From: a virus | Strand: one strand, 5' to 3' | DNA: 58,084 bases | Virus record (IMG/VR): IMGVR_UViG_3300032285_005007 | Coordinates: 1 to 58,084 of that record | Part shown: piece after piece, positions 21,685 to 39,977 of the stretch | Layout of the letters: every line of letters starts with the position of its first letter | How positions within the stretch are numbered: position 1 is the first letter of the stretch | Notes under the pieces: model-generated | The model's database searches: none | What the model saw: only the letters and a program-made list of their open reading frames with translations | What the model was told of the DNA's origin: nothing | Translations under genes and position numbers: made by a program

Positions 21685-21693
21685 TATTTATTA
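21684..21693 (+). promoter_or_regulatory. Variant late-type motif ATATTTATTA
   Basis: It differs from the consensus 10-mer at one base, overlaps the stop of the previous gene, and ends only 2 bases before the ATG at 21696. Confidence 0.35.
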
Positions 21694-21695
21694 GT

Positions 21696-22328: not shown

Positions 22329-22351
22329 AATATAGTTTGTATCTTCAAAGC

Positions 22352-23602: not shown

Positions 23603-23607
23603 AAGTT

Positions 23608-24069: not shown

Positions 24070-24101
24070 TTTGGTTTAGTAAATAAAGGTTATTATATTT
24101 A
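24070..24101 (+). promoter_or_regulatory. Candidate Bacteroidota-type promoter before the SSB gene
   Basis: TTTG at 24070-24073 and TATATTTA at 24094-24101 are 20 bases apart, close to the TTTG / TAnnTTTG consensus. The predicted start is ~24106-24108, giving a leader of about 20 bases to the ATG at 24129. Confidence 0.55.
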
Positions 24102-24128
24102 AGTTGTAAACAATAAAATAAGTTATAT

Positions 24129-24953
24129 ATGAATCTAGATGCAATCAAGAAAAAACTTGAGTCTATGCAGTCTAAACCTTCATCAGGTGGTGGCTCAACC
24201 AATCAGACAAAGCGATTTAAACCGCAGATTGGAAAACAAACGGTACGTGTTGTTCCGTTCAAATACAACAAAGAGTTTCCATTTACGGAAATGAAATTCT
24301 ACTATGGTATTGGTAGTAAAAAAGTAATCGCTTCTCCATTGAACTGGGGCGAAAAAGATCCAATTGCTGAATTTGCAAAACAACTTCGTGGTACAAACGA
24401 CAAAGAAAACTGGCGCTTGGCTAAAAAATTAGATCCGAAAGTTCGTATCTTTGCTCCTGTAATCGTTCGTGGGCAAGAGTCTGAAGGTGTTCACTTGTGG
24501 GAATTTGGTAAAGAAATTTATGAAGCGTTCTTGCAAATGGCAGCTGACGAGGAAGTAGGAGATTTCACAGATATCATGACTGGTCGTGACATTAAATTGG
24601 TTACTGTAGGACCTGAATCAACAGGTACTGTCTACAACAAGACAACAATTCAACCATCTATGAAAACATCTCCATTATCTGAAGAAGATAAAGAATTGGA
24701 ATTGTGGTTGGAAGATCAAGTCAATCCAAAAGACATTTACAAAATGTTACCTTTTGATGATATCAAAGCAGCCCTTCAAGAATGGTTAAACCCTGAAGAA
24801 GCAGCTGAGGAAGAATTTCCATCAGATGGTTTATTAACAGTAGAGGAAAAACCACAATCAAATTATAGCTTGTCTGCCAAACCAGCGGCTAAAAAATCAA
24901 AGGCAGATGCATTTGATGATTTGTTTGAGGAAGATGATGATATGCCATTTTAA
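24129..24953 (+). CDS. 32: Single-stranded DNA-binding protein, T4 gp32-like
   Basis: A 274-residue protein. A short basic N terminus (MNLDAIKKKLESMQSK) corresponds to the cooperativity segment. The core begins KPQIGKQTVRVVPFKYNKEF with KFYYGIGSKK and LNWGEKDPI, typical of gp32/SSB of T4-like phages. The C terminus is strongly acidic (DAFDDLFEEDDDMPF), the usual partner-binding tail. It covers single strands during replication and recombination. It lies 8 bases before uvsX behind its own promoter candidate, so both were probably made together early. Confidence 0.85.
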   Translation: MNLDAIKKKLESMQSKPSSGGGSTNQTKRFKPQIGKQTVRVVPFKYNKEFPFTEMKFYYGIGSKKVIASPLNWGEKDPIAEFAKQLRGTNDKENWRLAKKLDPKVRIFAPVIVRGQESEGVHLWEFGKEIYEAFLQMAADEEVGDFTDIMTGRDIKLVTVGPESTGTVYNKTTIQPSMKTSPLSEEDKELELWLEDQVNPKDIYKMLPFDDIKAALQEWLNPEEAAEEEFPSDGLLTVEEKPQSNYSLSAKPAAKKSKADAFDDLFEEDDDMPF

Positions 24954-24961
24954 TCTAAATC

Positions 24962-26050
24962 ATGGCTAAGACATCAAGAAAGTCATTAACTGAGGCGGCA
25001 GACAAGGAATTGAAAACCGCCTTCAGTTTAGATAAATTTAAGGCAAATAAGGGTTTAGCGTCAAACGTTAAATTCAAGGAGCAAAAATGGATTCCATTTT
25101 CTCCCGCTTTACAAGAAGCGCTATCTATTCCTGGCATTCCTATGGGTCATAATTCAATGGTTCGAGGAAAATCAAACACAGGAAAATCTACTATGACCAT
25201 TGAGGTAGCAGTTAATGCCCAAAAAATGGGAGTACTACCTGTACTGATCATCACCGAAATGAAACATGATTGGAACCACTGGAGAACAATGGGGTTTGAA
25301 ATGGAAGATGTTATTGATAAGGAAACAGGTGAAATTATCGATCAAACTGGATTCTTTATTTATCGAGATAGAAGCTCATTAAATTCAATTGAAGATATTG
25401 CAGCGTTCATTATCGATTTATTAACTGAACAGAAAAAAGGTAATTTACCATACGACTTACTATTCATCTGGGATTCAGTTGGTTCAATCCCTTGCCAAAT
25501 GTCAATTGAACAAGGTAAAAACAATCCAATGTGGAACGCAGGAGCCATTGCAACTCAATTCGGGAACTTTATCAATCAACAGATTGTAATGTCTCGTAAG
25601 GAAAGCTCAAAATACACGAATACTCTGTTTATTGTAAACAAAGTAGGTGTTGCTCCGGCTCTAACTCCAATGTCACAACCTAGAATGACAAATAAAGGTG
25701 GAGATACGTTCTATTACGATGTTTCATTATGTTTAACATTTGGTAACGTTACAAACGCTGGTACTTCTAAACTTAATGCTGTTAAAGACAAGAAAAAAGT
25801 TGAATTTGCATTACGTACAAAAATTGCTTGTGATAAAAACCACATCAATGGAATCACTACAATGGGTACTATTGTTTCTACAGTACACGGATTCATTAAA
25901 GATGATCCGAATGCTATCAAGAAATATAAAGATGCACACTCTACTGAATGGGCCGATATTTTAGGACAAGGTACTTATACAGTACAAGAAGACAACAGTG
26001 AGTGGGACGAAAAAGCACCAACACCTGATTTATTTGAAAACGAAGATTAA
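24962..26050 (+). CDS. uvsX: UvsX-like recombinase (RecA family)
   Basis: A 362-residue RecA-type ATPase. Walker A is GKSNTGKST at 69-77, and Walker B is LLFIWDS at ~166-172. LIITEMKHDWNHW at ~95-107 holds the switch-region glutamate, and EFALRTKIACDKNHINGI is a likely DNA-binding loop. UvsX exchanges strands for recombination-dependent replication and repair and works with the gp32-like SSB encoded just upstream. The 5' nuclease gene starts right after its stop. Confidence 0.9.
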   Translation: MAKTSRKSLTEAADKELKTAFSLDKFKANKGLASNVKFKEQKWIPFSPALQEALSIPGIPMGHNSMVRGKSNTGKSTMTIEVAVNAQKMGVLPVLIITEMKHDWNHWRTMGFEMEDVIDKETGEIIDQTGFFIYRDRSSLNSIEDIAAFIIDLLTEQKKGNLPYDLLFIWDSVGSIPCQMSIEQGKNNPMWNAGAIATQFGNFINQQIVMSRKESSKYTNTLFIVNKVGVAPALTPMSQPRMTNKGGDTFYYDVSLCLTFGNVTNAGTSKLNAVKDKKKVEFALRTKIACDKNHINGITTMGTIVSTVHGFIKDDPNAIKKYKDAHSTEWADILGQGTYTVQEDNSEWDEKAPTPDLFENED

Positions 26051-26051
26051 T

Positions 26052-27083
26052 ATGAAAAAAGACCTCCTAAATCTCTTAAACAACATACAAGAACATGGGG
26101 ACGAAACCCCAAAATCGGAGCGCTACTTGCTTATAGATGGACTCAACCTATTCTTCAGAAATTTTAGTGCAATTAACGCCGTCAACTCAAACGGAGTCCA
26201 TATTGGAGGTTTAGGAGGATTTTTTCGATCTTTGGGAGCTTTAATTCGCACCATCCAACCTACACAAGTTTATGTGGTGTTTGATGGTGTGGGTTCCTCC
26301 AATAACAGAAAAAACATCATTCCCGAATACAAATCAAACCGAAATGTATCTCGAGTAACTAAACATGAATTGTTTGATAATTTGGAAGAAGAAGATGACT
26401 CCAAAGTAGATCAAATCGTTCGCATCATCCAATACTTGAAAACGTTACCTGTTAAAACAGTTTCGTTACCTAGAGTAGAAGCAGATGATATTATCGCTTA
26501 CTTAAGTAGTACTTTGCTTACAAAACCTGAAGACAGAGCCTTCATAGTATCCAGCGATAAAGATTATTTACAGTTGGTAAGCGAGCAAGTAATTGTTTAT
26601 CGTCCAATTGAAAAAGAATACTACACTACAGATACTGTAAAAGAGAAATTCAATGTAACACCACACAACTTCCTATTGTACAAATTGTTAATGGGTGATA
26701 GTTCTGATGGAGTAACAGGTATCAAAGGATTAGGGGCTAAAGGATTATTCAAAAAATTCCCCGAAATAGCAACACAAGATCTATCATTTGATGATTTGAT
26801 TGACATTGCTGAAGCAAAATTAAAAGAACATGTCGTTTATGCAAGAGTACTACACGATGTGCCTTTACTAGAAGACAAATACAGGGTAATGGATTTATCT
26901 AATCCAATGATGGATGATAAAGATAAGATGTTTATAGACAAGTTTGTTGAAGAAACACACCTCCAATTTTTACCTAACACATTCGTTGAAATGTGTAATG
27001 AAGATCAACTTGGAAACTTAATTCGAAATACTGAATTCTGGGTGCAAGATATTTTCAAAGAATTGTTGGAAAACCAACAATAA
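26052..27083 (+). CDS. 5'-3' exonuclease / flap endonuclease (PolI N-terminal / T4 RNase H type)
   Basis: A 343-residue FEN-family nuclease starting at the ATG 2 bases after uvsX. Metal-binding motifs are YLLIDGLNLFFR (D29), VYVVFDGVGSSNNRK, RVEADDIIAYL and IVSSDKDYLQL. The helix-two-turn-helix region is MGDSSDGVTGIKGLGAKG. It removes RNA primers and flaps. Because the polymerase of this phage lacks a 5' nuclease domain, this free-standing enzyme supplies that activity in trans. Confidence 0.9.
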   Translation: MKKDLLNLLNNIQEHGDETPKSERYLLIDGLNLFFRNFSAINAVNSNGVHIGGLGGFFRSLGALIRTIQPTQVYVVFDGVGSSNNRKNIIPEYKSNRNVSRVTKHELFDNLEEEDDSKVDQIVRIIQYLKTLPVKTVSLPRVEADDIIAYLSSTLLTKPEDRAFIVSSDKDYLQLVSEQVIVYRPIEKEYYTTDTVKEKFNVTPHNFLLYKLLMGDSSDGVTGIKGLGAKGLFKKFPEIATQDLSFDDLIDIAEAKLKEHVVYARVLHDVPLLEDKYRVMDLSNPMMDDKDKMFIDKFVEETHLQFLPNTFVEMCNEDQLGNLIRNTEFWVQDIFKELLENQQ

Positions 27084-27130
27084 GTTATTAAGTTGAAGAA
27101 AAATAAGAGTTATATTTAAACAACAAGAAA

Positions 27131-27376
27131 ATGAAAGAAAAAATAGAAATTGATAGTTGGTTACAATATGTAGGCAATAATATTCCATCTTTAAAAAATG
27201 GGACTATTTATAGAGTTGATAATATGAGTGATAATTGGTTTGAAATATTAGTAGAGTCAGAAGTTATTTTGAGATTAGACTTAAAGAAAAATTCAAAAGA
27301 ATTTAAAGTCATAAATGATAAAGAATTAGAAGAATCAATGTTCAAACAACTTGAAATATTTAAAAAAGAACAATGA
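27131..27376 (+). CDS. Hypothetical protein (81 aa)
   Basis: A small charged protein (MKEKIEIDSWLQYVGNNIP; ENKD-rich end LEIFKKEQ) with a central strand pattern GTIYRVDNMSDNWFEILVES. It has a TATATTTA box at 27111-27118, though no matching TTTG 20 bases upstream. It overlaps the next gene by ATGA, so both are translated together. Function unknown. Confidence 0.5.
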   Translation: MKEKIEIDSWLQYVGNNIPSLKNGTIYRVDNMSDNWFEILVESEVILRLDLKKNSKEFKVINDKELEESMFKQLEIFKKEQ

Positions 27377-27819
27377 AAACATCAGTAGAAGAAACTAAAC
27401 CAATTACTATTTTATACGCAGCCTTTTGTGGCACAGGCAAAACATATATTTGTAACAATATTGATATTAAAGCAGTTGAGGTTGAATATTGGCAATATAA
27501 AGAAAAAGGATTACAGAAAGAATATATTCAAGATGTTAAAAAACTCATTGGAAAAGTAGACTATATTTTTATTTCAACTGACCCTGAAGGTTTAAGGCTT
27601 TTGAATGAAGAAGGTTTTGATATGACTCTTGTATATCCAAAAAATGAATTGAGAAATGAATATCTAGATAGGTACATTGATAGAGATAGTTCTTATGATT
27701 TTATTGGAACCTTTATGAAACATTGGAATCTTTGGATTAACGAACTCAAAGAACAAACATATTGTAAACATATTATTCTAGATTCAGGACAATACCTAAA
27801 AGATATTATTAACCTTTAA
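27373..27819 (+). CDS. P-loop nucleotide kinase-like protein
   Basis: A 148-residue protein with a P-loop near the N terminus (AFCGTGKTYI, about 17-26), then KKLIGKVDYIFISTDPEGL, LVYPKNELRNEYLDRY and a C-terminal helical lid-like end. I recall this compact family in phages and prophages, annotated as adenylate-kinase-like or P-loop NTPase. The expected role is nucleotide phosphorylation, in keeping with the reductase genes downstream, but the substrate is unknown. Its start overlaps the stop of the previous gene. Confidence 0.65.
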   Translation: MKTSVEETKPITILYAAFCGTGKTYICNNIDIKAVEVEYWQYKEKGLQKEYIQDVKKLIGKVDYIFISTDPEGLRLLNEEGFDMTLVYPKNELRNEYLDRYIDRDSSYDFIGTFMKHWNLWINELKEQTYCKHIILDSGQYLKDIINL

Positions 27820-27881
27820 ACAACAAGAACAATAAAACATGACATTTCCAATTGTTGTTAATATGTATAATAAAACGACAT

Positions 27882-28505
27882 ATGGTGATTTATTTAACAA
27901 CTCATGTTATAACTGGAAAAAAATATATTGGAAAGGATGTATCAAATAGTCCTAGTTATTTTGGAAGTGGAGCTGAAATTAAACATATAATTAAAACAGA
28001 AGGTAAAAGTAATTTAGTTAAAACTATACTTGAACATTGTGATTGTAAAGAAGATTTAGCTAAACGAGAAGAATTTTGGTTGCAAAAGTTTGATGCCGAA
28101 AACAATCCATTGTTTATGAACAGAACAAATAAAGCTTTTGGAAATAGTGGACTTTCGGATGAAACAAAATTAAAGATTAAAATGTCTAGTTTAGGTAAAC
28201 CAAAATCTACCGAAGCAAGAAATAATATGAGTAAAGGAAGAACAGGTAAAACTAGAAACCAAACAAAAGTTAGATCAGATAAGGGAAAACCAAGAGGAAT
28301 TAGCCCATGGGTTTCAGAAAGTCTTAAAACTAGAAATAGAGAATCTACCTTCAAACCAGTTATACAATATGATCTAGAAGGTAATATTGTTAGAGAATAC
28401 AAATCTGCCCAAGAAGCAAAAGATATTACAAATTTAAAAATCCAGAATGCTCTTTTAGGAACTACTAAAACTTCTGGAGGTTATATTTGGAAATACAAAG
28501 AATAA
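27882..28505 (+). CDS. GIY-YIG homing endonuclease with NUMOD modules
   Basis: A 207-residue protein from the ATG at 27882; a TTG ten codons earlier in frame is less likely. The N terminus is a GIY-YIG variant (VIYLTTHVITGKKYIGKD) with AKREEFWLQKFDA in the usual place of the later catalytic part. NUMOD3-like repeats (LSDETKLKIKMSSLGKPKS, then TEARNNMSKGRTGKT) follow. A NUMOD1-like end (PVIQYDLEGNIVREYKSAQE) binds DNA. It is a free-standing mobile gene between the kinase-like and helicase genes. There is no sign of an intron in the neighbours. Confidence 0.85.
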   Translation: MVIYLTTHVITGKKYIGKDVSNSPSYFGSGAEIKHIIKTEGKSNLVKTILEHCDCKEDLAKREEFWLQKFDAENNPLFMNRTNKAFGNSGLSDETKLKIKMSSLGKPKSTEARNNMSKGRTGKTRNQTKVRSDKGKPRGISPWVSESLKTRNRESTFKPVIQYDLEGNIVREYKSAQEAKDITNLKIQNALLGTTKTSGGYIWKYKE

Positions 28506-28517
28506 ATATTATATTTA
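28486..28517 (+). promoter_or_regulatory. Candidate Bacteroidota-type promoter before the helicase gene
   Basis: TTTG at 28486-28489, inside the end of the endonuclease gene, and TATATTTA at 28510-28517 are 20 bases apart, the same spacing as before the SSB gene. The leader to the TTG start at 28558 would be about 35 bases. Confidence 0.55.
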
Positions 28518-28557
28518 CATTAAATAAAAGTTATTAACAATTTAAAAAATAAAAGTT

Positions 28558-29916
28558 TTGACCCTCTCTTCAATTGATGAATATGGACCATCGTTCCAGA
28601 TGAAAGTAATATCTTCTTTACTAACACATAAAGAATTTTTACAAAACATAAACGACGTACTAAGTGATGAATATTTTTCAAATCCAGCACACAAATGGGT
28701 TATAAATCAAATCATCCAATATTATGAAAAGTTTCACACAACAATTTCAATGGACATCCTAAAGGTGGAAATGAAGAAATTAGATAACGAAGTACTTAAA
28801 GTATCCGTTAAAGAGCAATTACGTGAAGCATATAAAGCAGATATTGATGATTTAGCATATGTACAAGAAGAATTTTCTACGTTTTGTAAAAACCAACAGT
28901 TGAAAAAAGCATTATTGAATAGTGTAGATTTGTTAAAAGCTGGAGATTACGATTCGATCAAATATATGATTGAATCAGCAATGAAAGCAGGACAAGATAA
29001 AAACATTGGTCACGAATATAAAAAAGATACTGAATCACGTTACCGTGAAGATCATAGATCAATTGTACCAACACCATGGGAACCAATTAATGAATTAATT
29101 CAAGGTGGTTTAGGTAATGGAGATTTAGGATTGATTTTTGGTAATCCTGGAGGAGGTAAGTCATGGACTTTAGTTGCTTTAGGTGGACATGCTGTTAAAA
29201 TGGGTTACAATGTTATCCACTACACCTTAGAGTTAAGTGAAGCATATACTGGAAGACGATATGACGCTTTCTTTACAGGAACACCAGTAGATCAATTAGA
29301 AAAACATAAAGCAGAAGTAGAAGCATTAACAGCTGATCTACCAGGAGAATTGATTATTCGTGAGTATCCTATGGGAAAAACCACAATAAATACAATAGAA
29401 TCTCACATTAAAAAGGTAATTGATTTAGGAATCCAACCAGATCTTATCTTGATAGATTACATTGATTTACTTTCAACAAGAAAAAGAAATGTTGACCGTA
29501 AGGGAGAGATTGATGATATTTATACAAGCACGAAAGGATTAGCTCGCGAATTAAACATACCAATTTGGTCAGTTTCGCAAGTAAATCGCGCGGGAGCCAA
29601 AGATGATATTATTGAAGGCGATAAAGCAGCGGGATCATACGATAAAATGATGATTACCGATTTATCGCTCTCATTATCAAGAAAAAAAGAAGATAAAGTT
29701 AACGGAACCGGAAGGCTCCATATTATGAAAAATAGATATGGAATGGATGGTTTGACTTTTCAAGTAGATGTTAATACATCAAATGGTCATATTGCAATTG
29801 GAGACCATTACGATGAAGAAGCAGATACAGTTGCACCGAAAAAACAGTCAAATGATAACTTTGACGATTTAGATAAAAAAATGTTGGCAAATAGATTTTT
29901 TGAATTAAACGCATGA
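28558..29916 (+). CDS. Replicative DNA helicase, DnaB/gp41-like
   Basis: A 452-residue helicase. Residues 1-150 are the helical N domain. The RecA-like domain has Walker A GNPGGGKS (195-202), Walker B DLILIDYIDLL with D300, IPIWSVSQVNRAG (sensor H3) and an LHIMKNRYG arginine-finger region. It unwinds the fork as a hexamer. A TTG start is chosen because AAAAGTT stands directly before it, as before several ATG starts here; the first in-frame ATG is 14 codons in. It overlaps nrdB by ATGA. Confidence 0.9.
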   Translation: MTLSSIDEYGPSFQMKVISSLLTHKEFLQNINDVLSDEYFSNPAHKWVINQIIQYYEKFHTTISMDILKVEMKKLDNEVLKVSVKEQLREAYKADIDDLAYVQEEFSTFCKNQQLKKALLNSVDLLKAGDYDSIKYMIESAMKAGQDKNIGHEYKKDTESRYREDHRSIVPTPWEPINELIQGGLGNGDLGLIFGNPGGGKSWTLVALGGHAVKMGYNVIHYTLELSEAYTGRRYDAFFTGTPVDQLEKHKAEVEALTADLPGELIIREYPMGKTTINTIESHIKKVIDLGIQPDLILIDYIDLLSTRKRNVDRKGEIDDIYTSTKGLARELNIPIWSVSQVNRAGAKDDIIEGDKAAGSYDKMMITDLSLSLSRKKEDKVNGTGRLHIMKNRYGMDGLTFQVDVNTSNGHIAIGDHYDEEADTVAPKKQSNDNFDDLDKKMLANRFFELNA

Positions 29917-30863
29917 TAACAGAACTTAGACCCCACTACAAACCATTCGAATATCAAACAGCATTCGAATTTTACAAAGATCAACATAGAGCCCATTGGC
30001 TAGCAGACGAAGTTCCATTATCTTCAGACTTAAATGACTGGAAACTTAAATTAAGCGAATCTGAGAAAAATCTAATTGGTAATATCTTGAAATCGTTTGC
30101 TCAAACAGAGACGTATGTAAACGATTATTGGGCAACAAAGGTAGCAGTATGGTTTCCTAAACATGAAATCAAAGCTATGGCGTGTGCATTCGCTGATTTC
30201 GAATCGATACATGCTGAGGCTTATGCTCGTTTAAATGAAGAACTTGGATTAGATGATTTTGAGGCATTTATGGAAGACGAGGAAGCAAAAGCTAAAATTG
30301 ATCGTCTAGTTGAATTACCTGGAGATACATTACGTGAAAAAGCACTTTCATTAGCTATATTCTCTGCATTTACAGAAGGTGTAAATTTATTCTCTTCATT
30401 TGCAGTATTGATGTCTTTTCAATTACGTAACTTAATGAAAGGTACAGGCCAGATTGTTGAATGGAGCGTTCGTGATGAATCATTACATTCAAAAGCTGGA
30501 TGCTGGTTATTCAGAACATTAATGGAAGAAAACCCAGAGTTAAATAACCCAATGATGACAATTGATATTTACGAGGCATGTGAAATTTCAGTTGGATTAG
30601 AATTTGACTTTATTGACAAAGCATTTGAAATGGGTGAAATTGAAGGTTTAAATAAAGACCAATTGAAAAATTTCATTAAAGAACGTGCTAATCAAAAATT
30701 AATTGAATTAGGTTATAGTCCTTTATACAACGATATCGATCCAAATCTTTTAAAACAAATGGAATGGTTCGGACATTTAACAAGTGGTAAAACACACCAA
30801 GATTTCTTCGCAGGAAGAGTAACAGATTATTCAAAATCAACCGCTGACTGGAGCGATTTATAA
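29913..30863 (+). CDS. nrdB: Ribonucleotide reductase class I beta subunit
   Basis: A 316-residue ferritin-like protein. Metal ligands visible are E66 (SFAQTETYVNDYW), E97 and H100 (DFESIHAEAY), E155 (FTEGVNLF), E189 and H192 (VRDESLHSKA). Y104 sits in the position of the radical tyrosine, four residues after the histidine. It generates the radical used by NrdA to make deoxynucleotides. It is coupled to the helicase upstream (ATGA overlap) and to nrdA 9 bases downstream. Confidence 0.95.
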   Translation: MITELRPHYKPFEYQTAFEFYKDQHRAHWLADEVPLSSDLNDWKLKLSESEKNLIGNILKSFAQTETYVNDYWATKVAVWFPKHEIKAMACAFADFESIHAEAYARLNEELGLDDFEAFMEDEEAKAKIDRLVELPGDTLREKALSLAIFSAFTEGVNLFSSFAVLMSFQLRNLMKGTGQIVEWSVRDESLHSKAGCWLFRTLMEENPELNNPMMTIDIYEACEISVGLEFDFIDKAFEMGEIEGLNKDQLKNFIKERANQKLIELGYSPLYNDIDPNLLKQMEWFGHLTSGKTHQDFFAGRVTDYSKSTADWSDL

Positions 30864-30872
30864 AAACAACAA

Positions 30873-32600
30873 ATGAGCAAATTAAACGTAGACACAAGTA
30901 AATGGGTGAAGGGTAAAGATTTCCCTGAATGGATGGATGAGATTGGTACTTCAATCATCTCACAAGGATACTTACTCCCAGAGGAAAATGTATTTAAAGC
31001 ATTTAATCGAGTAAGTAAAGCGGCAGGACGTAGACTAAAACGTAAAGATTTAGTACCGTTTTTTGCTGAGGCAATGGAAAAAAATTGGTTGTGTCTTGCG
31101 TCACCTGTACTTTCAAATTTAGGTACTGAACGTGGTATGCCTATCTCATGTTTTGGAATTGATACAGACGATTCAATTGAAGGAATTGCATTAGCAAATT
31201 CTGAGTTGATGCGCTTATCATCTCAAGGTGGAGGTGTAGGTATTGGTCTATCTCGAATTAGAGGTAGAGGTAAAGAAATTTCTGGAAACGGTGTTTCCGA
31301 GGGTGTAGTTCCATGGGCTAAAATTTATGACTCAACTATCCTAGCAACCAACCAAGGTTCAGTTAGACGAGGAGCAGCTTCAGTCAACTTACATATCAAC
31401 CACCCAGATATTGAAGAATTTTTAATGATTCGTCGACCAAAAGGAGATGTAAATCGTCAATGTCTTAACTTACACCAATGTGTAGTAATTGATGATGATT
31501 TTATGAACAAACTAGAGGATAAAGAACCACGCGCTTTAAGATTGTGGGGAGAAATCCTTAAAACACGTTTGGAAACAGGTGAACCCTATTTGATGTTTGA
31601 AGATAATATCAACAACAATAATCCTCAAGCATACAAAAATAATAATTTGCATGTTTCGATGACAAACATTTGTTCTGAAATTGCACTTTACACAGATCCA
31701 TTACATTCATTTATTTGCTGTTTATCATCTTTGAATTTGGCTAGATGGGATGAATGGAAAGACTATAAATTTGAAAACGGAATGACCTTACCTGAATTAA
31801 CTTGTTGGTTTTTGGAAGGTGTATTACAAGAATTTATTGACAGATCCAAAAATGTAAAATTTATGGAAAACACATACCGTTCAGCAGTTAAAGGTAGAGC
31901 AATTGGTATTGGTGTTTTAGGATGGCATACATTCTTACAAGAAAAAGGCATTCCATTTGCTGGTTTACAAGCAAATTCATACACTCGAATTATGTCTCAA
32001 TTTATTGAGGAAGGAGCATTAAAAGCATCTCGTGATCAAGCAATTGAATATGGAGAACCAGAATGGTGTAAAGGTACAGGTTTAAGACACACACATCATT
32101 TAGCAATTGCCCCAACAGTATCCAATGCTAATATTTCAGGTGGTGTTTCACCTTCAATTGAACCAATTCCTGCAAATGTATTTAACTTGAAAACGGCCAA
32201 AGGTACATTTATCAAGAAAAACCCAACATTGGAACGTTTATTGGCTTCAAAAGGATTTAACATCGATAGTATTTGGGAACAAATTGCTAAAGATAAAGGT
32301 TCTGTAATGGGATTACCTGATCATATTTTATCTGCTGAAGAAAAAGAAGTATTCTTGACCTTCAAAGAAATCAACCCATACGAAATCGTTCGTCAAAATG
32401 GTATCCGTCAAAAACACATTGATCAAGCTATTTCATTGAACTTGACTTTCGACCCATCTGATTCACCAAAATATATTAGTGAGGTACATAAATTGGCTTG
32501 GAGAGAAGGCATCAAAACGTTATATTACATGCGATCAGAAAGTATTCTAAGAGGAGATAATCTTCAACGTACTGCGGATTGTGTTTCTTGCGAAGGATAG
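30873..32600 (+). CDS. nrdA: Ribonucleotide reductase class I alpha subunit (no ATP cone)
   Basis: A 575-residue catalytic subunit. Active-site residues are C93 (RGMPISCFG), N265/C267/E269 (MTNICSEIAL), the second redox cysteine in FICCLSSLNL, the tyrosine pair in TLYYMRSES, and a C-terminal CVSC shuttle pair. It reduces ribonucleoside diphosphates with NrdB. At 575 residues it is shorter than cellular NrdA (~760) and lacks an N-terminal ATP cone, so it should escape dATP inhibition by that route. It ends the replication block. Confidence 0.95.
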   Translation: MSKLNVDTSKWVKGKDFPEWMDEIGTSIISQGYLLPEENVFKAFNRVSKAAGRRLKRKDLVPFFAEAMEKNWLCLASPVLSNLGTERGMPISCFGIDTDDSIEGIALANSELMRLSSQGGGVGIGLSRIRGRGKEISGNGVSEGVVPWAKIYDSTILATNQGSVRRGAASVNLHINHPDIEEFLMIRRPKGDVNRQCLNLHQCVVIDDDFMNKLEDKEPRALRLWGEILKTRLETGEPYLMFEDNINNNNPQAYKNNNLHVSMTNICSEIALYTDPLHSFICCLSSLNLARWDEWKDYKFENGMTLPELTCWFLEGVLQEFIDRSKNVKFMENTYRSAVKGRAIGIGVLGWHTFLQEKGIPFAGLQANSYTRIMSQFIEEGALKASRDQAIEYGEPEWCKGTGLRHTHHLAIAPTVSNANISGGVSPSIEPIPANVFNLKTAKGTFIKKNPTLERLLASKGFNIDSIWEQIAKDKGSVMGLPDHILSAEEKEVFLTFKEINPYEIVRQNGIRQKHIDQAISLNLTFDPSDSPKYISEVHKLAWREGIKTLYYMRSESILRGDNLQRTADCVSCEG

Positions 32601-32668
32601 TATATGTATGACCGTAAATAGGTTTTTTGTATTTGTTTTGTAATTGTTAAACTAATTTAAAAATAAAA

Positions 32669-34573
32669 ATGAAAAACCTTTTATTGTCTTTGTTATTCTT
32701 AGTAGTAACTTTTAACGTGTTTTCCCAAGCACCAAATGCACCAGGAAATGGTATTTATGCCATAATCCATCCAACTTATCAAGTAGCTCCTACCGCTACA
32801 GGTTTCACAACCGCTAACGTAACGTTGCAAAACACTACATTAACGAAATTTACCGCAACTCAATTTCGTGTGTTTTATGACAAAATTGCATTTACAAATG
32901 CTACAGTTGCTCTAATTGGTTCTACAACCAACTTGGACATGCAATATGTAGTTAATGCAGCTAATGGTTACATTACTATTACGCTTGTATACACAGGTGC
33001 TTCATCTACCTATACTTTAGCAGGTGGTGAAAGATTTGCAATTACATTTACACATGCCGCTCCTGCTGTATTCAATAACTTAGCTTCAATTTCCAACTTA
33101 ACTTGGACAGGTGCTGCAACATTTTCACAATATGCTGCTAAACAAAATGGTATTGATACTACTTTAATATTACACAACTATGGTGGTCAATTTATCTTAC
33201 CAACATTTACATTTGCTGGTAACTTTACAAACACAACAGGTACAGCAGCTAAAAACTTACCATTAGCATTACAAACTCGCCCTGCAGGTGGTTCTACTTG
33301 GTCACAACATTCATCTTATTTAACGGATTTAAGTGGTAACTTTACATTTACAGTTAACTTAGATACAACTTATTGGGATGTACGTTTAGCAATCCAAGGT
33401 GATACAATGGGTATTGGAAATGCTATCTCAGCAACTGATGCACAATTAATTAATCAATGGGTATTAGGCAACTCAACAATGTCAGGATTTGATTATTATA
33501 CAGCTGATGTAAATGGCTCAAATAACGTAACAATTTCAGATGCCTATGGTGTATTTGCAAAAGTATCAGGTAACTTTACAGTATGGCCAAACAACGTTAA
33601 AAACGTTAAATTCTTTACAGCAACAGAATACGCTACAATCAATAACTCCGCTACCAACTACACTTCAACTATACCAGGTGTAACTAATTTCACATATGAA
33701 ATTATAGCAGGTCAACCATCCACAGTAACTTATTATGTAGCGGTACCTGGTGATGCGAATGGAACAGGATATCATATGGCTCGTCAAACACCAATTGAAA
33801 TCTTGATTGATCCAATCCCTGGAATTGAAAACCAAATCTACAATGTAATCGATAATACAGTAGAATATGATTTCCCAACTTCACAAATTGAAGTAAACGT
33901 ACCTCATTTATCTGTACAAGCAGGAAATTTAGTTAATATTCCTGTAAAAGTATTTACAAACGGACAAGAATTGAATTCATTGCAATTTGGATTGAAATAC
34001 GATCCAACAGTACTTGAATTTAAAAATGCTTACTCTACTTCAAACGTAATGAAATGGTTAACATTTATCAACCCAAATAACGACGAAATTAAATGGGGTG
34101 GATATGATGCAACTGATAACTTGAATCCATTACAAGATGGTGATGAGGTAATGACATTGCAATTTTTAGCTCTACAACCACAAACATCATGGTTAGAAAG
34201 CCCACTTTACACAACTGATAAATTTGCAGGAGCTACTAATTCAAAAGATCTTGAAATTACACCTACAAATGGAATTTTACAAGTACTTAAATCTATTGGT
34301 GGTAAAGTAATTGCTCCAAACACAATTGAAGTAAACCCAAATCCTGTATTAAACGATGTTGCTATTACATTTAACGTAACTTCAACTACAGATGCTCATT
34401 TAGCAATCTATGATTTGCAAGGTAGAAAAGTTGTTACAATATTGGAAGGACAATTACCAGCAGGACAATTCACATATGTAAAAGATTTAGGTAAATTAGC
34501 TCAAGGAATGTATGTAGTCAATTTATCCCTAGATAACGAAAACCCAATCAATACAAAGTTAATTAAACAATAA
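32669..34573 (+). CDS. Secreted cohesin-like protein with T9SS type A sorting domain
   Basis: A 634-residue protein with signal peptide (MKNLLLSLLFLVVTFNVFSQ). A dockerin-like calcium loop lies near residue 275 (DVNGSNNVTISDAYGVF), followed by a TSTIPGVTNF / YYVAVPGDANG module. Residues ~405-545 look cohesin-like (VPHLSVQAGNLVNIPVKV, LNSLQFGLKYDPTVLEF). The last ~85 residues are a T9SS type A sorting domain (VNPNPVLNDVAITFNV, LAIYDLQGRKV, GMYVVNLSLD). It should be exported through the host type IX system and anchored at the surface. It opens a block of exported proteins; the next gene starts 3 bases later. Confidence 0.85.
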   Translation: MKNLLLSLLFLVVTFNVFSQAPNAPGNGIYAIIHPTYQVAPTATGFTTANVTLQNTTLTKFTATQFRVFYDKIAFTNATVALIGSTTNLDMQYVVNAANGYITITLVYTGASSTYTLAGGERFAITFTHAAPAVFNNLASISNLTWTGAATFSQYAAKQNGIDTTLILHNYGGQFILPTFTFAGNFTNTTGTAAKNLPLALQTRPAGGSTWSQHSSYLTDLSGNFTFTVNLDTTYWDVRLAIQGDTMGIGNAISATDAQLINQWVLGNSTMSGFDYYTADVNGSNNVTISDAYGVFAKVSGNFTVWPNNVKNVKFFTATEYATINNSATNYTSTIPGVTNFTYEIIAGQPSTVTYYVAVPGDANGTGYHMARQTPIEILIDPIPGIENQIYNVIDNTVEYDFPTSQIEVNVPHLSVQAGNLVNIPVKVFTNGQELNSLQFGLKYDPTVLEFKNAYSTSNVMKWLTFINPNNDEIKWGGYDATDNLNPLQDGDEVMTLQFLALQPQTSWLESPLYTTDKFAGATNSKDLEITPTNGILQVLKSIGGKVIAPNTIEVNPNPVLNDVAITFNVTSTTDAHLAIYDLQGRKVVTILEGQLPAGQFTYVKDLGKLAQGMYVVNLSLDNENPINTKLIKQ

Positions 34574-34576
34574 GCT

Positions 34577-34894
34577 ATGTCAGAAGAAACAAACGAAGAC
34601 ACTTGGTCAGGCCTTAAAAAAACGATCATTGGAACTCTTACTACAGTTATTACTGGAGGTGGTGTATGGTTAGGAACAGCTCTTTATGGTGGCGGACACG
34701 ATGAAGAACCTAAAGAAGAAACCAAAACAGAACAACCTGCATCAGCTGCTCCTGTAATTGTAAACGTTCAACAAAACCAAGAAAACAAACAAAAAGTTGA
34801 AAATGGTGGTGGAACAGTAATTCGTGAGCGAGTAATTGAAAAACCAGCTCAACCAGCTGCACCTGTACAGAAACCACAAGAGGAATCATGGTAA
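34577..34894 (+). CDS. Small inner-membrane protein with long periplasmic-type tail
   Basis: A 105-residue protein with no cleavable signal. A short charged N terminus is followed by one hydrophobic segment at ~17-40 (IIGTLTTVITGGGVWLGTAL). The tail is hydrophilic and Glu/Pro/Gln-rich (NVQQNQENKQKVENGG, KPAQPAAPVQKPQEES). Its last 7 bases overlap the CsgG-family lipoprotein gene. A single-pass anchor with periplasmic tail beside an outer-membrane lipoprotein resembles an i-spanin/o-spanin pair, though the tail is not an obvious coiled coil. Function unproven. Confidence 0.55.
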   Translation: MSEETNEDTWSGLKKTIIGTLTTVITGGGVWLGTALYGGGHDEEPKEETKTEQPASAAPVIVNVQQNQENKQKVENGGGTVIRERVIEKPAQPAAPVQKPQEESW

Positions 34895-35616
34895 GATTTT
34901 TATTTATATTATTGACGCTAGGGCTGTTTTCTTGCAAAACAGCTCAAGCTCAAGGTGGTATAGGTACTGTTAAAACAGAACAATATCAAGCTGATTTTGA
35001 GAAAAAACAGTCACTTGATGTTGTATCGGACTATGATGGTTCTATTCAAGTTCCTATCCAATTGCTTAAAATTGGAATCAACGAGGAACTATATGAAATG
35101 TATCCTGAACTTAAAGACAAACGTGTTGGTTTAGGTGTAACAAACATTGTGATCGAATACCTTGAATATACTAATCGCTTTACGTTTACTGAGGAAAAAG
35201 AAGACATTAAGCAACGTATGATTGCTCAAGATAAAGCATCTGATAAAGGTATTTCATCAAACAAAATAGAGGTAAAAGGAAATGTAGTACTTGCAAAGTA
35301 TTTCGTTTACATTGAAGTTTATGATTTCAGTGTATCCGAAGACGAAATAGTTAAAGTAAATGGTCAACAAACCACTACTCAAACAACACGTTTAGGGTTG
35401 CAGATTAAATTCGTAGATGCTGAAACCGGCCAAATCATTGTAGGTTCAGGTTTAGGCGAGTCAAACACGGTAAAAATGTCGTCTATATTGGGAGATGTTA
35501 CCGATGAGGTAAAATTCAACCAATCTACAATTGGAATCTCAACTAAAAAAGCACTAGAAACTGCATCATCCCGAGTTGTATCACGATTAATTAGCAAAGG
35601 TGTATTCAAGAATTGA
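34888..35616 (+). CDS. CsgG-family outer-membrane lipoprotein
   Basis: A 242-residue protein with a lipoprotein signal (FILLTLGLFSCKTAQAQ; lipobox LFSC). The rest follows CsgG order: VGLGVTNIVIEYLEYTNRFT with EEKEDIKQRMIAQDK (the CsgG 'LVTAL...RF...ER..L..LL.E' region), VLAKYFVYIEVYDFSVSEDE, a strand pair TTRLGLQIKFVDAETGQIIV, and a C-terminal helix ALETASSRVVSRLISKGVF. CsgG forms a nonameric pore that exports curli subunits. No curlin-like gene is visible here. It may secrete the neighbouring proteins or open the outer membrane. Confidence 0.75.
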   Translation: MVRFLFILLTLGLFSCKTAQAQGGIGTVKTEQYQADFEKKQSLDVVSDYDGSIQVPIQLLKIGINEELYEMYPELKDKRVGLGVTNIVIEYLEYTNRFTFTEEKEDIKQRMIAQDKASDKGISSNKIEVKGNVVLAKYFVYIEVYDFSVSEDEIVKVNGQQTTTQTTRLGLQIKFVDAETGQIIVGSGLGESNTVKMSSILGDVTDEVKFNQSTIGISTKKALETASSRVVSRLISKGVFKN

Positions 35617-37142
35617 AAAAATACTTGTTTATATTGTTCCTGCTGTGTATATTTAATATAGACGCACAGACGTATAATTATAGTTATACTGACCCTTGTA
35701 CTGGGAATTTAAAAACAATAGTAGTTCCGATAAATGGTAATGTTACTGTTGCATATTACGGTGAATTAGGGTCATTTAACGCAAATGATTTTACAAACGG
35801 AAATTTTGAGGCGTGGGCAAGCAACATATTTAACCAATATGGGCAAGATTCACCATGTTCTCAAATTGTGGGGTTGGGAACGGCGGTTAACGTGACACAA
35901 AGTACAACTTTAAATGTTATGGGGATTTTAAATTCCCTATCAACAATAGCGAGTTTGACGGGTGGAGCAACAAATGTTCTAGGAGGAGCAGTTGGATCAG
36001 TATCCAATTCTTCTGGAGATGGAGAAAGTAACAATAATAACAACAATAACAAAAATGGAAACAACAGTGTCAGTAGCAATCCTAGTAATCCTAGTGGGAG
36101 TGGGGGTAGCGTCTCTAATCAGTCTAATCCAAACTCGCAGACCCAAAGTAGCGGAACGCAAGAAGGAACAGGAACAAGCAGTAGCGAAACTAGTGGAAAC
36201 CCTGAAGGAAGCGGGAGTGCCGGTTCTACCTCATCCACTGAAGGAGGAGGAAGTGAAGGAACAACCACAAGTAGTGGAGGTGAAAGTGGAGGAACCAGTA
36301 GTGATCCCGGTAGTGGAAGCACCAGTGGAAGTAGTAGTGGTGGAAATACCGGTGGTACTTCAGGAAACGGTAACGGTGGAGAAACCAGTTCGAATCAAGA
36401 AGGCTCGCAAACCACGTCAGAAAAAACAGAAGGCAAAACAAATATAACAGCCGGAGCTTCAACAACAGCTAAATCAACACCAACCTCTAAAGAGGGAGGT
36501 AAACCAAGTGTAGTCGCGTCAAGCGACTTCGTTGGTTTCAACTTCAGAAATTCAGACGTTAAATTAGGAGCCAAAGCAACTGGTGGTTATACAGCCATGA
36601 GATGGGATGGAAAACGAAGTTGGGGTGCATTAGCAGATTATACTTCAGCCTTAAAAGGTCCAAACATCACAGGTTTCTATGCTTGGATGAGACCTAAATC
36701 AGTCATTTTACTTTCAGGAACTGCAACTATTGGATTTGAAGGAAACAAATCCTTATATGGTACTATAGCATTTGGACAAATGTTCAAATTTAAAAAAGCA
36801 CCTACCCTCAAATTGGTTTATATGGCTACGGCATCATATGGTCAAGTCTATAGAGTATCATTTTTAGGAACAGCAGTAATTGGAGGTATAATGTATGATA
36901 TCAAAGTAGGTAAACGCATAGATATCAAGTTAATGGATTTAATGGTTTATGCTCCATATGTTTCATATTATAATGATGTTTTATTAAAGTCACCTTATGT
37001 AATGCTTCCTAGCATTGGAACAAACATAGGTATAACCAAGAAATTCAAATTTAACATAAACGCAGGAGGTGCTTGGGATTTAAAAACCGCAGCTCTAAAC
37101 TATACAGTAACATGTGGTACAAGAATATTGGTAGGACAATAA
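35613..37142 (+). CDS. Exported protein: signal peptide, Ser/Gly/Thr-rich linker, predicted C-terminal beta-barrel
   Basis: A 509-residue protein from a TTG start overlapping the previous stop (TTGA). Signal peptide MKKYLFILFLLCIFNIDAQ. Residues ~20-120 are folded-looking, ~130-300 are low-complexity Ser/Gly/Thr/Asn/Glu, and ~305-509 have repeated amphipathic strands (GFYAWMRPKSVILLSGTATI, LKLVYMATASYGQVYRVSFL) suggesting an outer-membrane barrel. The low-complexity part could span the envelope or reach outside. No family is recognised. It shares the coupled block with CsgG and the lectin. Confidence 0.6.
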   Translation: MKKYLFILFLLCIFNIDAQTYNYSYTDPCTGNLKTIVVPINGNVTVAYYGELGSFNANDFTNGNFEAWASNIFNQYGQDSPCSQIVGLGTAVNVTQSTTLNVMGILNSLSTIASLTGGATNVLGGAVGSVSNSSGDGESNNNNNNNKNGNNSVSSNPSNPSGSGGSVSNQSNPNSQTQSSGTQEGTGTSSSETSGNPEGSGSAGSTSSTEGGGSEGTTTSSGGESGGTSSDPGSGSTSGSSSGGNTGGTSGNGNGGETSSNQEGSQTTSEKTEGKTNITAGASTTAKSTPTSKEGGKPSVVASSDFVGFNFRNSDVKLGAKATGGYTAMRWDGKRSWGALADYTSALKGPNITGFYAWMRPKSVILLSGTATIGFEGNKSLYGTIAFGQMFKFKKAPTLKLVYMATASYGQVYRVSFLGTAVIGGIMYDIKVGKRIDIKLMDLMVYAPYVSYYNDVLLKSPYVMLPSIGTNIGITKKFKFNINAGGAWDLKTAALNYTVTCGTRILVGQ

Positions 37143-38110
37143 TATTACTCATATTATTTTCATGTAACTTGTTTTCCCAAACATTTACATATTCTGGTTA
37201 CATCAAAAATGCTGATGGTACAGGTGCTGTAAATGTACCTGTTAAATTATATAGACGTACAACTCCAACTTTAACTGGGTTTACTTCACAAAACAACTAC
37301 AATGGACATTCATATTATCGTTCTACTGGTTCGGCATATTGGACAGATGCAAGAACTGCTTGTACTAATATGGGGGGACATTTAGTTACAGTAACAACTG
37401 CTGCTGAAAATACCTTCATCTACAACTTATGGCCTTCGGGATGGATTGGTTTAACTGATGAAGTCACAGAAGGTACTTGGAAATGGGTTACCGGAGAAAC
37501 ATATTCTTACTCTTCCTGGAACCCAGGAGAACCAAATAATGCGGGAAATGAAGATTATGTACAATTTGTTGGGGGTGGTAAATGGAATGACTTACCTAAT
37601 AATCAATCATTACCTTACGTAATTGAATTTGACTATATAAACGATTACACTCCATGGGTGTTATACCAAACAGTATACACTAACTCCTCAGGATTATATT
37701 CAATTTCCCAATCAACGAACCCAGCAGTTGAATGGTATATTCAAATAGACGCCCCTACTCCAGTGACATCCCACACTATAACAGATTTTAGAGGTGTAAC
37801 CAATGTAGTACTAGGAACAACATCTGCAAAAAGTATAAACTGGTTGCAATACGATACAAACAATGATGGAAAAATAAGCGTCTCAGATGCTATCTACATC
37901 AATAGAAAACAAAACGGGCTAGCAACATTCTCTTACACATCTAGAATATTTACCCCAACACAATATACTTCTTTAACAACAGGTACAACCGATTTGCGCT
38001 CCACTATACCAGGTGTAAGCTCAATTACAATTACATCTCCTGTAAGTGGTACCACTACAGGAAACTATTATTTAATCGCTCCTGGGTACAAGGGGCAAGT
38101 AACCTATTAA
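37112..38110 (+). CDS. Secreted C-type lectin with dockerin-like module
   Basis: A 332-residue protein from the ATG at 37112, inside the end of the previous gene. Signal peptide IGRTIILLILFSCNLFSQ. Residues ~60-175 are a C-type lectin fold: HSYYRSTGSAYWTDARTAC, WIGLTDE (111-117), GTWKWVTGE, EPN (140-142) and WND (158-160). The EPN motif is the mannose-type calcium site in animal lectins. Residues ~245-332 hold a dockerin-like loop (DTNNDGKISVSDAIYI) and a RSTIPGV / NYYLIAPGY module also present in the 634-residue protein upstream. No T9SS domain is visible. It should bind glycans at the cell surface. Confidence 0.85.
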   Translation: MWYKNIGRTIILLILFSCNLFSQTFTYSGYIKNADGTGAVNVPVKLYRRTTPTLTGFTSQNNYNGHSYYRSTGSAYWTDARTACTNMGGHLVTVTTAAENTFIYNLWPSGWIGLTDEVTEGTWKWVTGETYSYSSWNPGEPNNAGNEDYVQFVGGGKWNDLPNNQSLPYVIEFDYINDYTPWVLYQTVYTNSSGLYSISQSTNPAVEWYIQIDAPTPVTSHTITDFRGVTNVVLGTTSAKSINWLQYDTNNDGKISVSDAIYINRKQNGLATFSYTSRIFTPTQYTSLTTGTTDLRSTIPGVSSITITSPVSGTTTGNYYLIAPGYKGQVTY

Positions 38111-38111
38111 T

Positions 38112-38603
38112 ATGAAACTAATACTTTTATTACTACTTCCATTATTTGCTTGCGCACAAGAAGGCGTTACAAACTTTCAACGAGCCAACAACATCAACAC
38201 CACCATATCCTGTGTTTATGTAGATACCGTGTTTGTAACCGCAAAGGTAAGGGAACTAGGCACACGTGATATTCGCTTTGGTATCAAACAAATTACTGAA
38301 GATGCTTTATCTGAAAAATATTGTTTGGATGATAAAGGTGATGCTATTAAAGTTGAAATATATTACTTTGGTATTCCAAAAAATACCATTCGAGTAATGG
38401 GGATAGAACGTTCAAATGTAATTACTCAAGTTGGAGTGCGTTTATATCATAATAACAGCAAATATGAAGGTATAGGTGAATCCGAAACCGAAATTACAGC
38501 AGTTTTAATCGAGGTAAAAGAAGGTGCCATTCCATTTGAAAAAATGACAGTATCCTCTGCCCTAAAAAAAGCAATAAATGAAGCTATTAGCAAAATGCCT
38601 TAG
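38112..38603 (+). CDS. Putative lipoprotein, distantly CsgG/YajG-like
   Basis: A 163-residue protein with a lipoprotein-type signal (MKLILLLLLPLFACAQ; lipobox LFAC). The mature part has strand-rich ITQVGVRLYHNNSKYEGIGE and a C-terminal helix TVSSALKKAINEAISKM, a layout like the last part of CsgG or YajG-type lipoproteins. It could assemble with the CsgG-family protein upstream. The last 26 bases overlap the next gene in another frame. Confidence 0.55.
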   Translation: MKLILLLLLPLFACAQEGVTNFQRANNINTTISCVYVDTVFVTAKVRELGTRDIRFGIKQITEDALSEKYCLDDKGDAIKVEIYYFGIPKNTIRVMGIERSNVITQVGVRLYHNNSKYEGIGESETEITAVLIEVKEGAIPFEKMTVSSALKKAINEAISKMP

Positions 38604-39030
38604 TATATTTTTCCCATTTATACTCTCAGCTCAAATCAAAATAGATGATGTTGGAGATGGATGGAAAGATAAAGTTGAACAAGCAATAGAGGTTGTAAAA
38701 CAATACGACCCTGAAAAATATACTTTATTAAAGGAAAATTGTGAGCATATCAGCTACTCACTTTTATCTTTCTCCACTACCGAAAATGGAACTACGATTT
38801 TAATTGCTCAAAAAGAAATAATAGCGGGAAATATAAACGATTTAGCTGCTACTTTAGTACATGAGTCTTTACATTTATATTTTTGGAGAAACAATATGAT
38901 ACTCCCAGAAAATGAAGAAGAAATACTATGTTACACATATGAACTTGAATTGCTTTTTAAAATACCTGATGTAGAACCGTGGTTAATAAGTCATGCAAAA
39001 AAGCAGATTGAACTTTATACAAATCCTTAA
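38578..39030 (+). CDS. Exported HExxH zinc metallopeptidase-like protein
   Basis: A 150-residue protein with signal peptide (MKLLAKCLSIFFPFILSAQ). The helix NDLAATLVHESLHLYFW holds HESLH (H95-H99), the zincin motif, and a following acidic helix (ENEEEILCYTYELELL, ~110-125) could give the third zinc ligand. Short secreted zincins of this kind are sometimes immunity or housekeeping proteases, so activity is not certain. It closes the exported block and precedes the holin-like gene by 23 bases, which hints at a role in envelope breakdown. Confidence 0.65.
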   Translation: MKLLAKCLSIFFPFILSAQIKIDDVGDGWKDKVEQAIEVVKQYDPEKYTLLKENCEHISYSLLSFSTTENGTTILIAQKEIIAGNINDLAATLVHESLHLYFWRNNMILPENEEEILCYTYELELLFKIPDVEPWLISHAKKQIELYTNP

Positions 39031-39039
39031 TATTTATAA
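39030..39039 (+). promoter_or_regulatory. Late-type upstream motif ATATTTATAA
   Basis: An exact motif copy overlapping the stop of the previous gene, followed by ACAAAAG, 14 bases before the holin-like ATG at 39054. Confidence 0.6.
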
Positions 39040-39053
39040 ACAAAAGAACGCTT

Positions 39054-39302
39054 ATGAGAAATTTTTTCAATCATCTATTCGATGACAACAATTCAATCAA
39101 CGAAAAATCAGTTGTTGGATTTATAGCATTTTTTATGCTATGTGTAGCACTAATAGTAGATTTAGTTACTGGTGCTTATGGTAACCCATTATTGATCAAC
39201 AAATTTATTTTTGATGGCTTTATGGTAATTGTATTAGGGTCATTCGGAATTGCTTCCGTTGACAAGTGGATTAACAAAAAAAATGATAAAAACGAAGAGT
39301 AA
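39054..39302 (+). CDS. Holin-like membrane protein
   Basis: An 82-residue protein with two hydrophobic segments, VVGFIAFFMLCVALIVDLV (~20-38) and FIFDGFMVIVLGSFGIASV (~51-69), separated by a short turn, and a charged end KKNDKNEE. Size, topology and direct coupling (TAATG) to the endolysin gene fit a class II-type holin that times lysis by opening the inner membrane. The sequence itself is not matched to a named holin family. Confidence 0.7.
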   Translation: MRNFFNHLFDDNNSINEKSVVGFIAFFMLCVALIVDLVTGAYGNPLLINKFIFDGFMVIVLGSFGIASVDKWINKKNDKNEE

Positions 39303-39913
39303 TGAGTTTAAAAAGTTTACAAGAAAAAATTGGAGTAACAGCTGATGGAGCTTTTGGTCCAGGTACGTTAAAAGCCGCAATGGCGTTTTACAAATTAACC
39401 CCAGTACGTGCAGCACATTTCTTTGCACAAACAGCACATGAAACTGGTGAGTATAAATTATTTAGTGAAAACCTAAACTATTCAGCAGCAGGTTTGCAAG
39501 GTACTTTTGGAAAATATTTCCCTGGAACATTGGAAGAATCTTACGCTCGTAACCCTGAAAAAATTGCTAACCGCGTTTATGCAGACAGAATGGGTAACGG
39601 AAACGAAGCTTCAGGTGACGGATGGAAATACAGAGGTCGTGGTGCATTGCAATTGACTGGAAAAGCAAATTATAAAGCATTTGCAGACTATTTAGGAAAA
39701 CAAGAAATCATGGAAACACCGGATTTAGTTGCTACAACATATGCATTTGAATCAGCAATGTTCTTCTTTGACAAAAACAAATTATGGTCAATTTGTGATC
39801 AAGGTGTAAATGAAGCTGCTATTTTAGCATTGACAAAACGCATCAACGGAGGTACTAATGGTTTAGACCACAGAAAATTGTTAACTAACAAATATTACGG
39901 ATACGTAAAATAA
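39302..39913 (+). CDS. Endolysin, glycoside hydrolase family 19 (chitinase-like)
   Basis: A 203-residue enzyme. A short peptidoglycan-binding-like start (GVTADGAFGPGTLKAAMAFY) leads into a GH19 domain: HFFAQTAHETGEYKLFSENL with E47 and E56, ANRVYADRMGNGNEASGDGW, and KYRGRGALQLTGKANY. GH19 lysozymes cut the glycan strand at the end of infection. There is no signal peptide, so release should depend on the holin-like protein before it. A terminator follows 22 bases later. Confidence 0.9.
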   Translation: MSLKSLQEKIGVTADGAFGPGTLKAAMAFYKLTPVRAAHFFAQTAHETGEYKLFSENLNYSAAGLQGTFGKYFPGTLEESYARNPEKIANRVYADRMGNGNEASGDGWKYRGRGALQLTGKANYKAFADYLGKQEIMETPDLVATTYAFESAMFFFDKNKLWSICDQGVNEAAILALTKRINGGTNGLDHRKLLTNKYYGYVK

Positions 39914-39935
39914 TTGTTTCTCTAGAAATAATTTG

Positions 39936-39961
39936 GAGCCCCATTTAGGGGCTCTTTTTTT
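39936..39961 (+). terminator. Rho-independent terminator after endolysin
   Basis: Perfect 7-bp stem GAGCCCC / GGGGCTC with ATTTA loop and seven T. It separates the lysis genes from the tail fibre unit. Confidence 0.9.
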
Positions 39962-39977
39962 CCTTATATACTTTCCA

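Follow-up and report, generated by a model that had tools for sequence, protein, structure and literature searches.

Curli-type (type VIII secretion) modules have been described in pelagiphages and in the Methylophilales phage Melnitz, and sibling capture, superinfection defence and lysis have been proposed as their roles (PMC7029224, PMC9599517, PMC9004378). Sibling capture was put forward for the pelagiphage modules (PMC7029224, PMC9599517); in Melnitz, clumping was absent and the authors favoured a lysis role for CsgGF (PMC9004378). The CsgG proteins of phage curli modules match the Pfam family PF03783, share 37–40% identity with that of Escherichia coli, and are accompanied by CsgF and, according to PMC9599517, by CsgA/B. 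Here we describe a gene cassette centred on a predicted CsgG-fold protein, g3, in a 58-kb virus record (IMG/VR record IMGVR_UViG_3300032285_005007, positions 1 to 58,084; hereafter the window), which also contains tail sheath and virion-structure genes. Like the phage curli modules, the cassette is phage-borne, multi-gene, exported, centred on a CsgG fold and moved between phages as a unit. In contrast to them, it encodes a cohesin-dockerin-like scaffold with a type IX secretion system (T9SS) sorting tail, a 12-strand barrel and a paralogue of g3, and its g3 misses PF03783. Family searches of the block found no CsgA/B, CsgE or CsgF, and a pattern search found no curlin repeat, in agreement with an initial annotation made from the sequence alone, which had noted the absence of a curlin gene and considered a standard curli system unlikely. 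Because of the missing PF03783 match, the missing partners and a lipobox that is not conserved, the cassette is not a member of the curli-type phage modules, which are its closest precedent; it may work in a similar way.

The locus comprises nine plus-strand genes at 32669–39913, of which g1 to g7 form the block and g8 and g9 follow it. Neighbouring block genes overlap or are separated by a few bases. By a simple home-made signal-peptide rule, which is crude and is not SignalP, export signals were identified in six of the seven block proteins versus four of the 58 other non-overlapping plus-strand open reading frames of the window (Fisher p = 1.7e-5). The initial description of seven adjoining genes, six of them with export signals, directly followed by holin-like and GH19 endolysin genes, was therefore accurate. 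No match to known defence families was found.

Conservation and distribution of the cassette

Three scans of viral contigs with g3 retrieved 146, 146 and 112 relatives in overlapping sets, and the retained loci collapse to 52 lineages at 95% g3 identity. Linkage was counted in the 40 lineages whose locus is flanked by 6.5 kb or more in both directions. The genes g1, g2, g3, g4 and g6 occur together in all 40 of them, g5 is present in 28 and g7 in 11. This set of exported proteins, not described before, is conserved in viruses of Bacteroidota, and the possibility raised at the outset, that its genes are unlinked and sporadic in related phages, does not hold for these five genes. Carrier contigs reach about 300 kb. 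Their tail sheaths are diverged and their ribonucleotide reductases are unrelated or not detectable, indicating that the cassette spans distant phages; the unrelated or undetected copies also led to the rejection of ribonucleotide reductase as a core marker of carriers.

The only cultured carriers found are four records of Flavobacterium phage immuto (one species), which grows on Flavobacterium sp. LMO8. The genus Flavobacterium has T9SS. Genes gp013–gp019 of immuto (vB_FspM_immuto, NC_055915) represent the same cassette, with a g3 that is 70% identical; their annotations go no further than hypothetical, lectin or cohesin protein. The immuto cassette differs from that of the window in that g1 is in two pieces, the lectin gene comes first and the homologous lysin is distant. 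Annotated queuosine-type DNA modification genes (FolE, QueC/D/E/F and DpdA) are located at 18607–37015 of the immuto genome. In bacteria, g3 was detected at only two loci among 84,980 species genomes, both on contigs of metagenome-assembled genomes (MAGs), and a cellular origin of g3 was rejected on this basis. No PF03783 gene was found in one of the two g3-bearing MAGs.

Modules and predicted folds of the encoded proteins

The g1 product carries a signal peptide and a C-terminal sorting domain above the curated cut-offs of both TIGR04183 and PF18962, and by these models it is a T9SS type A cargo. The NCBI T9SS model has exactly one match per genome in 16 of the 22 long carrier records. Cohesin family PF00963 scores above its cut-off in g1 and in immuto gp015. 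The reading of g1 as a T9SS-sorted cohesin-like protein and of g5 as a C-type lectin was thus correct, but it overlooked a dockerin-like module common to both proteins, which are homologous in this region according to hidden Markov models (HMMs) built for this analysis. No further dockerin-like module was found among the proteins encoded by the window or the complete immuto genome, and no docking modules were found on virion proteins. The g5 gene most likely starts within the end of g4 (Table 1). Across lineages, the module behind the head of g5-type proteins is constant and the head varies, being a C-type lectin, a lectin with a LamG-like insert, a GEVED domain or a NIDO-like domain, where the LamG-like and NIDO-like names are our reading of the alignment. 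The sorting tail and a separate docking head are both present in 27 of the 40 lineages and both absent in 12; one lineage has the head only and none has the tail only (Fisher 2e-9, a value that assumes independent lineages, whereas these are related). In immuto-type phages, g1 is split exactly between the dockerin and cohesin 2, and each half has its own signal peptide. A diversity-generating retroelement acting on the lectin was considered and rejected, as no reverse transcriptase (RVT_1) was found in 15 carrier records, of which virus contigs may be partial and immuto is complete.

The arrangement of cohesins on an anchored scaffold and dockerin-like modules on displayed parts resembles that of the cellulosome. 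Unlike the cellulosome, the cassette is phage-borne and T9SS-sorted, with a divergent dockerin and with lectin-type heads instead of enzymes. A search of the open-access literature for phage cohesins or dockerins or for phage T9SS cargo found no relevant papers.

Elsewhere in the window, a second phage-encoded T9SS cargo of 733 aa is located among the tail genes (7009–9210, plus strand), with a signal peptide, an SprB-like repeat, a PKD domain and a T9SS type B sorting domain. Its relatives occur in at least 169 viral contigs and in uncultured phages of 634 and 642 kb, mostly in the absence of the CsgG-like cassette. Two adjoining tail sheath paralogues (2883–4652 and 4699–6405, plus strand) each match PHROG 23 over the full length.

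Searches with the g3 sequence against Pfam (including PF03783), PHROGs, NCBIfam and PDB sequences gave no match, and fold comparison was therefore used. The AlphaFold models of cassette proteins are monomeric and of moderate confidence; that of g3 was built from 31 relatives (mean per-residue confidence, pLDDT, 69). In a Foldseek search against the PDB, the first 19 matches of this model are CsgG in its pre-pore and membrane forms (best match E 9.8e-10, probability 1.00, template-modelling score about 0.5), followed by FlgT, PelC, GNA1162 and LptE. Against viral predicted structures, the best-ranked match comes from an uncultured phage and bears the name CsgG. Comparison of the g3 profile with seven real CsgG sequences by hhalign was weak (E 4e-4, probability 33%), with a sensible register. 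The CsgG fold of g3 is supported by these models, and membership applies at the fold level, not at the Pfam family level. The lack of a sequence-profile match, which the initial annotation had held to speak against CsgG, was overturned by structure. PelC, FlgT, GNA1162 and LptE are ring-forming or envelope proteins without the CsgG barrel. They belong to cellular systems for polysaccharide, flagella and lipopolysaccharide, whereas the cassette is from phages, and no sequence similarity between them and g3 was detected.

In sequence and monomer model, hydrophilic stretches that are several residues shorter take the place, in g3, of the membrane-barrel hairpins of E. coli CsgG; the second hairpin is nearly as short in some Pfam-positive Bacteroidota CsgG. 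Among 52 lineages, 14 have a lipobox in g3, this window included. Because of these short, hydrophilic hairpins and the rarely kept lipobox, a membrane pore, as g3 was originally labelled, is not supported. In almost all comparisons made, g3 is the core gene with the highest identity among lineages (53–87%, versus 21–67% for g4 and 25–77% for g1), suggesting that it forms a tight ring or has a conserved partner. The g6 product, previously taken for a second lipoprotein, has a lipobox-like sequence in one of 48 lineages and is instead a paralogue of g3. Direct sequence-profile comparison with CsgG did not identify g4 or g6 as CsgG members.

The single helix of g2 is preceded by positive charges and followed by acidic residues. 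The tail that comes next ends in a tryptophan in 51 of 51 lineages, a sign that g2 may have a specific partner towards the outer side. For g4, the initial prediction of an outer-membrane barrel behind a signal peptide agrees with the model, in which the barrel is closed with 12 predicted strands, the N-terminal domain is small with a long helix, and the linker is of low complexity. Foldseek matches of the barrel include KdgM (TMt 0.70), NanC (0.65), autotransporters and FapF. The N-terminal helix, linker and 12-strand barrel of g4 resemble the amyloid exporter FapF at the level of fold; other barrels score equally or better.

Table 1. Features of the cassette and its downstream neighbourhood in the window.
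Feature	Position	Strand	Characteristics and evidence
g1, secreted scaffold, 634 aa	32669..34573	+	Signal peptide, cohesin 1, Ig-like, dockerin-like, cohesin 2, T9SS type A sorting tail
Dockerin-like module of g1, residues 252–364	33422..33760	+	g5-derived HMM matches at E 2.9e-25
Cohesin 2 of g1, residues 407–534	33887..34270	+	PF00963 above cut-off
T9SS type A sorting domain of g1, residues 556–632	34334..34564	+	PF18962 E 6e-9, TIGR04183 E 1.3e-9, both above cut-off
g2, inner-membrane protein	34577..34894	+	One N-terminal transmembrane helix, Pro/Gln-rich periplasmic tail
g3, predicted CsgG-fold exported protein	34888..35616	+	AlphaFold and Foldseek; most conserved cassette gene
g4, exported protein	35613..37142	+	N-terminal domain, long disordered linker, predicted C-terminal outer-membrane barrel; AlphaFold, Foldseek
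12-strand barrel domain of g4, residues 299–507	36507..37133	+	AlphaFold and Foldseek
g5, exported head protein	37112..38110	+	C-type lectin and dockerin-like module; proposed start ATG 37112
C-type lectin domain of g5	37337..37621	+	PF00059 E 1.1e-17
Dockerin-like module of g5	37769..38095	+	HMM comparison with g1 module
g6, exported short paralogue of g3	38112..38603	+	hhalign probability 95%, E 3.2e-8
g7, exported HExxH putative metallopeptidase, accessory	38578..39030	+	Motif; 11/40 lineages
ATATTTAT word, putative late promoter element before g8–g9	39030..39037	+	Perfect copy
g8, holin-like two-helix protein	39054..39302	+	Sequence
g9, GH19 endolysin	39302..39913	+	PHROG 181 E 3e-62; PF00182
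Intrinsic terminator 3' of lysin	39935..39962	+	Strong; 8-pair stem then T run

Late-type word and lysis neighbourhood

In the window and in immuto, the word ATATTTAT precedes sheath, tube, fibre, terminase and other late genes, and it was not found before the replication genes examined in the two genomes. The extended form ATATTTAT(A/C)A precedes late structural genes on the plus strand at 2542, 2856, 4677, 6422, 10666, 39030, 39978, 44195 and 47889, and is also found in the immuto genome; the window has 20 plus-strand and five minus-strand copies. Of 49 lineages, 20 have the word ATATTTAT before the cassette's first gene, compared with 2.2% of random windows and 9.9% of other open reading frame starts; before the internal genes g2, g3 and g4 it stands in only one of 154 cases. 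From this distribution, ATATTTAT is likely a late promoter element of this phage group. A Bacteroidota host-type promoter pattern was not above chance.

A GH19 lysin is located within 8 kb of the cassette in 28 of the 40 lineages and g8 in 27 (29 and 28 in the raw table, where one of each is from immuto, 30 kb away). Its placement with respect to the cassette varies among about eight arrangements, including one between g3 and g4, and the proximity of the lysin has therefore been kept through rearrangement. The g8 gene sits between g2 and g3 in nine lineages. The exported HExxH protein g7 of the initial annotation keeps its motif as HE[ST]xH in all 16 relatives checked, but its distribution shows that it is dispensable to the cassette. 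In two lineages without sorting tail and head (L121 and L147), a 200–210-aa protein with one N-terminal helix is encoded between g8 and the lysin, about 4.6–5.0 kb upstream of g3, and is a candidate spanin. In the tail region of the window, the product of 18671–19684 (plus strand) has a borderline Hydrolase_2 (Cell Wall Hydrolase) domain (26 bits, cut-off 27) and is perhaps a virion-borne lysin.

Proposed function and rival explanations

We propose, with about even confidence, that the cassette acts late in infection and equips the infected Bacteroidota cell with an adhesive surface complex. A surface organelle was among the jobs suggested initially, and it is the one best supported, by the scaffold, the docking heads and the T9SS tail. 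In its fuller form, which is put forward tentatively, the cassette would encode a surface organelle that Bacteroidota phages evolved independently of curli, consisting of a cohesin-dockerin scaffold with swappable sugar-binding heads, exported and anchored by a hijacked host T9SS and seated on a phage-specific CsgG-fold ring with a 12-strand barrel; it would be expressed with lysis and virion genes, and dying cells would hold or attract new hosts. The g1 scaffold would cross the inner membrane via Sec and then use the host T9SS, with the sorting tail anchoring it at the surface. The sugar-binding head of g5 would dock by its dockerin-like module onto the g1 cohesins, and g1 copies may chain together, since g1 carries both kinds of module. 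A ring in the periplasm or at the outer membrane would be made of g3 and g6; the g4 barrel would sit in the outer membrane, and g2 would extend outwards from the inner membrane. These four proteins may constitute an envelope-spanning base that assembles or anchors the scaffold, and in lineages whose g1 has no sorting tail the base would export it. The payoff would probably be that neighbouring cells or particles are held near the lysing cell, or that receptors are masked.

Several observations weigh against this proposal. The Dockerin_1 family PF00404 scores 21.5 bits in g5 and 17.1 bits in g1, below the Pfam cut-off of 22.9. All carriers were located via g3, and the lineages are related, so the linkage counts are not independent. 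The g1 gene of this window is preceded by a copy of ATATTTAT with one mismatch and by no exact copy. The strongest reason for doubt is that the 12 of 40 lineages without sorting tail and separate head retain the five-gene core, and all 12 have a lysin nearby. In these lineages the core must act otherwise or export the scaffold itself, which keeps explanations by lysis and by secretion alive.

The main rival is a lysis machine, which we regard as unlikely. In this explanation, g2 together with g3, g6 and g4 would open the outer membrane as an elaborate spanin after the action of holin and GH19 lysin, and g1 and g5 would decorate or stabilise it. The lysin proximity through its many arrangements also fits a lysis role and to that extent counts against an adhesive complex; the tail-less, head-less lineages with their nearby lysin, the insertion of g8 between g2 and g3, and the topology of g2, a single helix with a long periplasmic tail as in the inner-membrane subunit of spanins, point the same way. 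However, the homologous lysin is 30 kb off in immuto, a further 11 lineages lack one within 8 kb, and lectins, cohesins and sorting tails would be superfluous for spanins. The cassette is not a classical spanin, as g3 is a 240-aa CsgG-fold protein whose lipobox is not conserved, in place of a small outer-membrane lipoprotein partner.

Secretion in the style of curli or Fap, where g3, g6 and the g4 barrel would export g1 and the heads as a fibre without the host T9SS, appears improbable. CsgG is the best fold match of g3, FapF is among the matches of the g4 barrel, the T9SS tail is missing in some lineages, and canonical CsgG modules exist in other phages (PMC9599517). Such a channel would nevertheless be unnecessary in most lineages, which carry the T9SS tail; the g3 hairpins are short and hydrophilic, its lipobox is mostly lost, and neither curlin nor CsgE or CsgF was found by family searches. 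Superinfection exclusion, with the surface lectin and scaffold blocking or masking the receptors of competing phages, is very improbable. It would fit an exported, surface-directed lectin with rapidly changing heads, but the promoter-like word and the neighbouring genes indicate late expression, and known defence families gave no match.

Phages are usually pictured as acting inside the cell. Here, 52 lineages, including one cultured species, keep a five-gene envelope core, joined in most of them by a surface scaffold whose adhesive heads are swappable. If the adhesive-complex proposal is true, the cassette would represent a second, unrelated route, besides pelagiphage curli, for the remodelling of the host surface by phages. 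It would possibly also be the first case to be described in which a virus uses the T9SS and a cohesin-dockerin-like assembly. Immuto and its Flavobacterium host allow direct testing, and the proposal, if true, would give functions to protein families that are now hypothetical.

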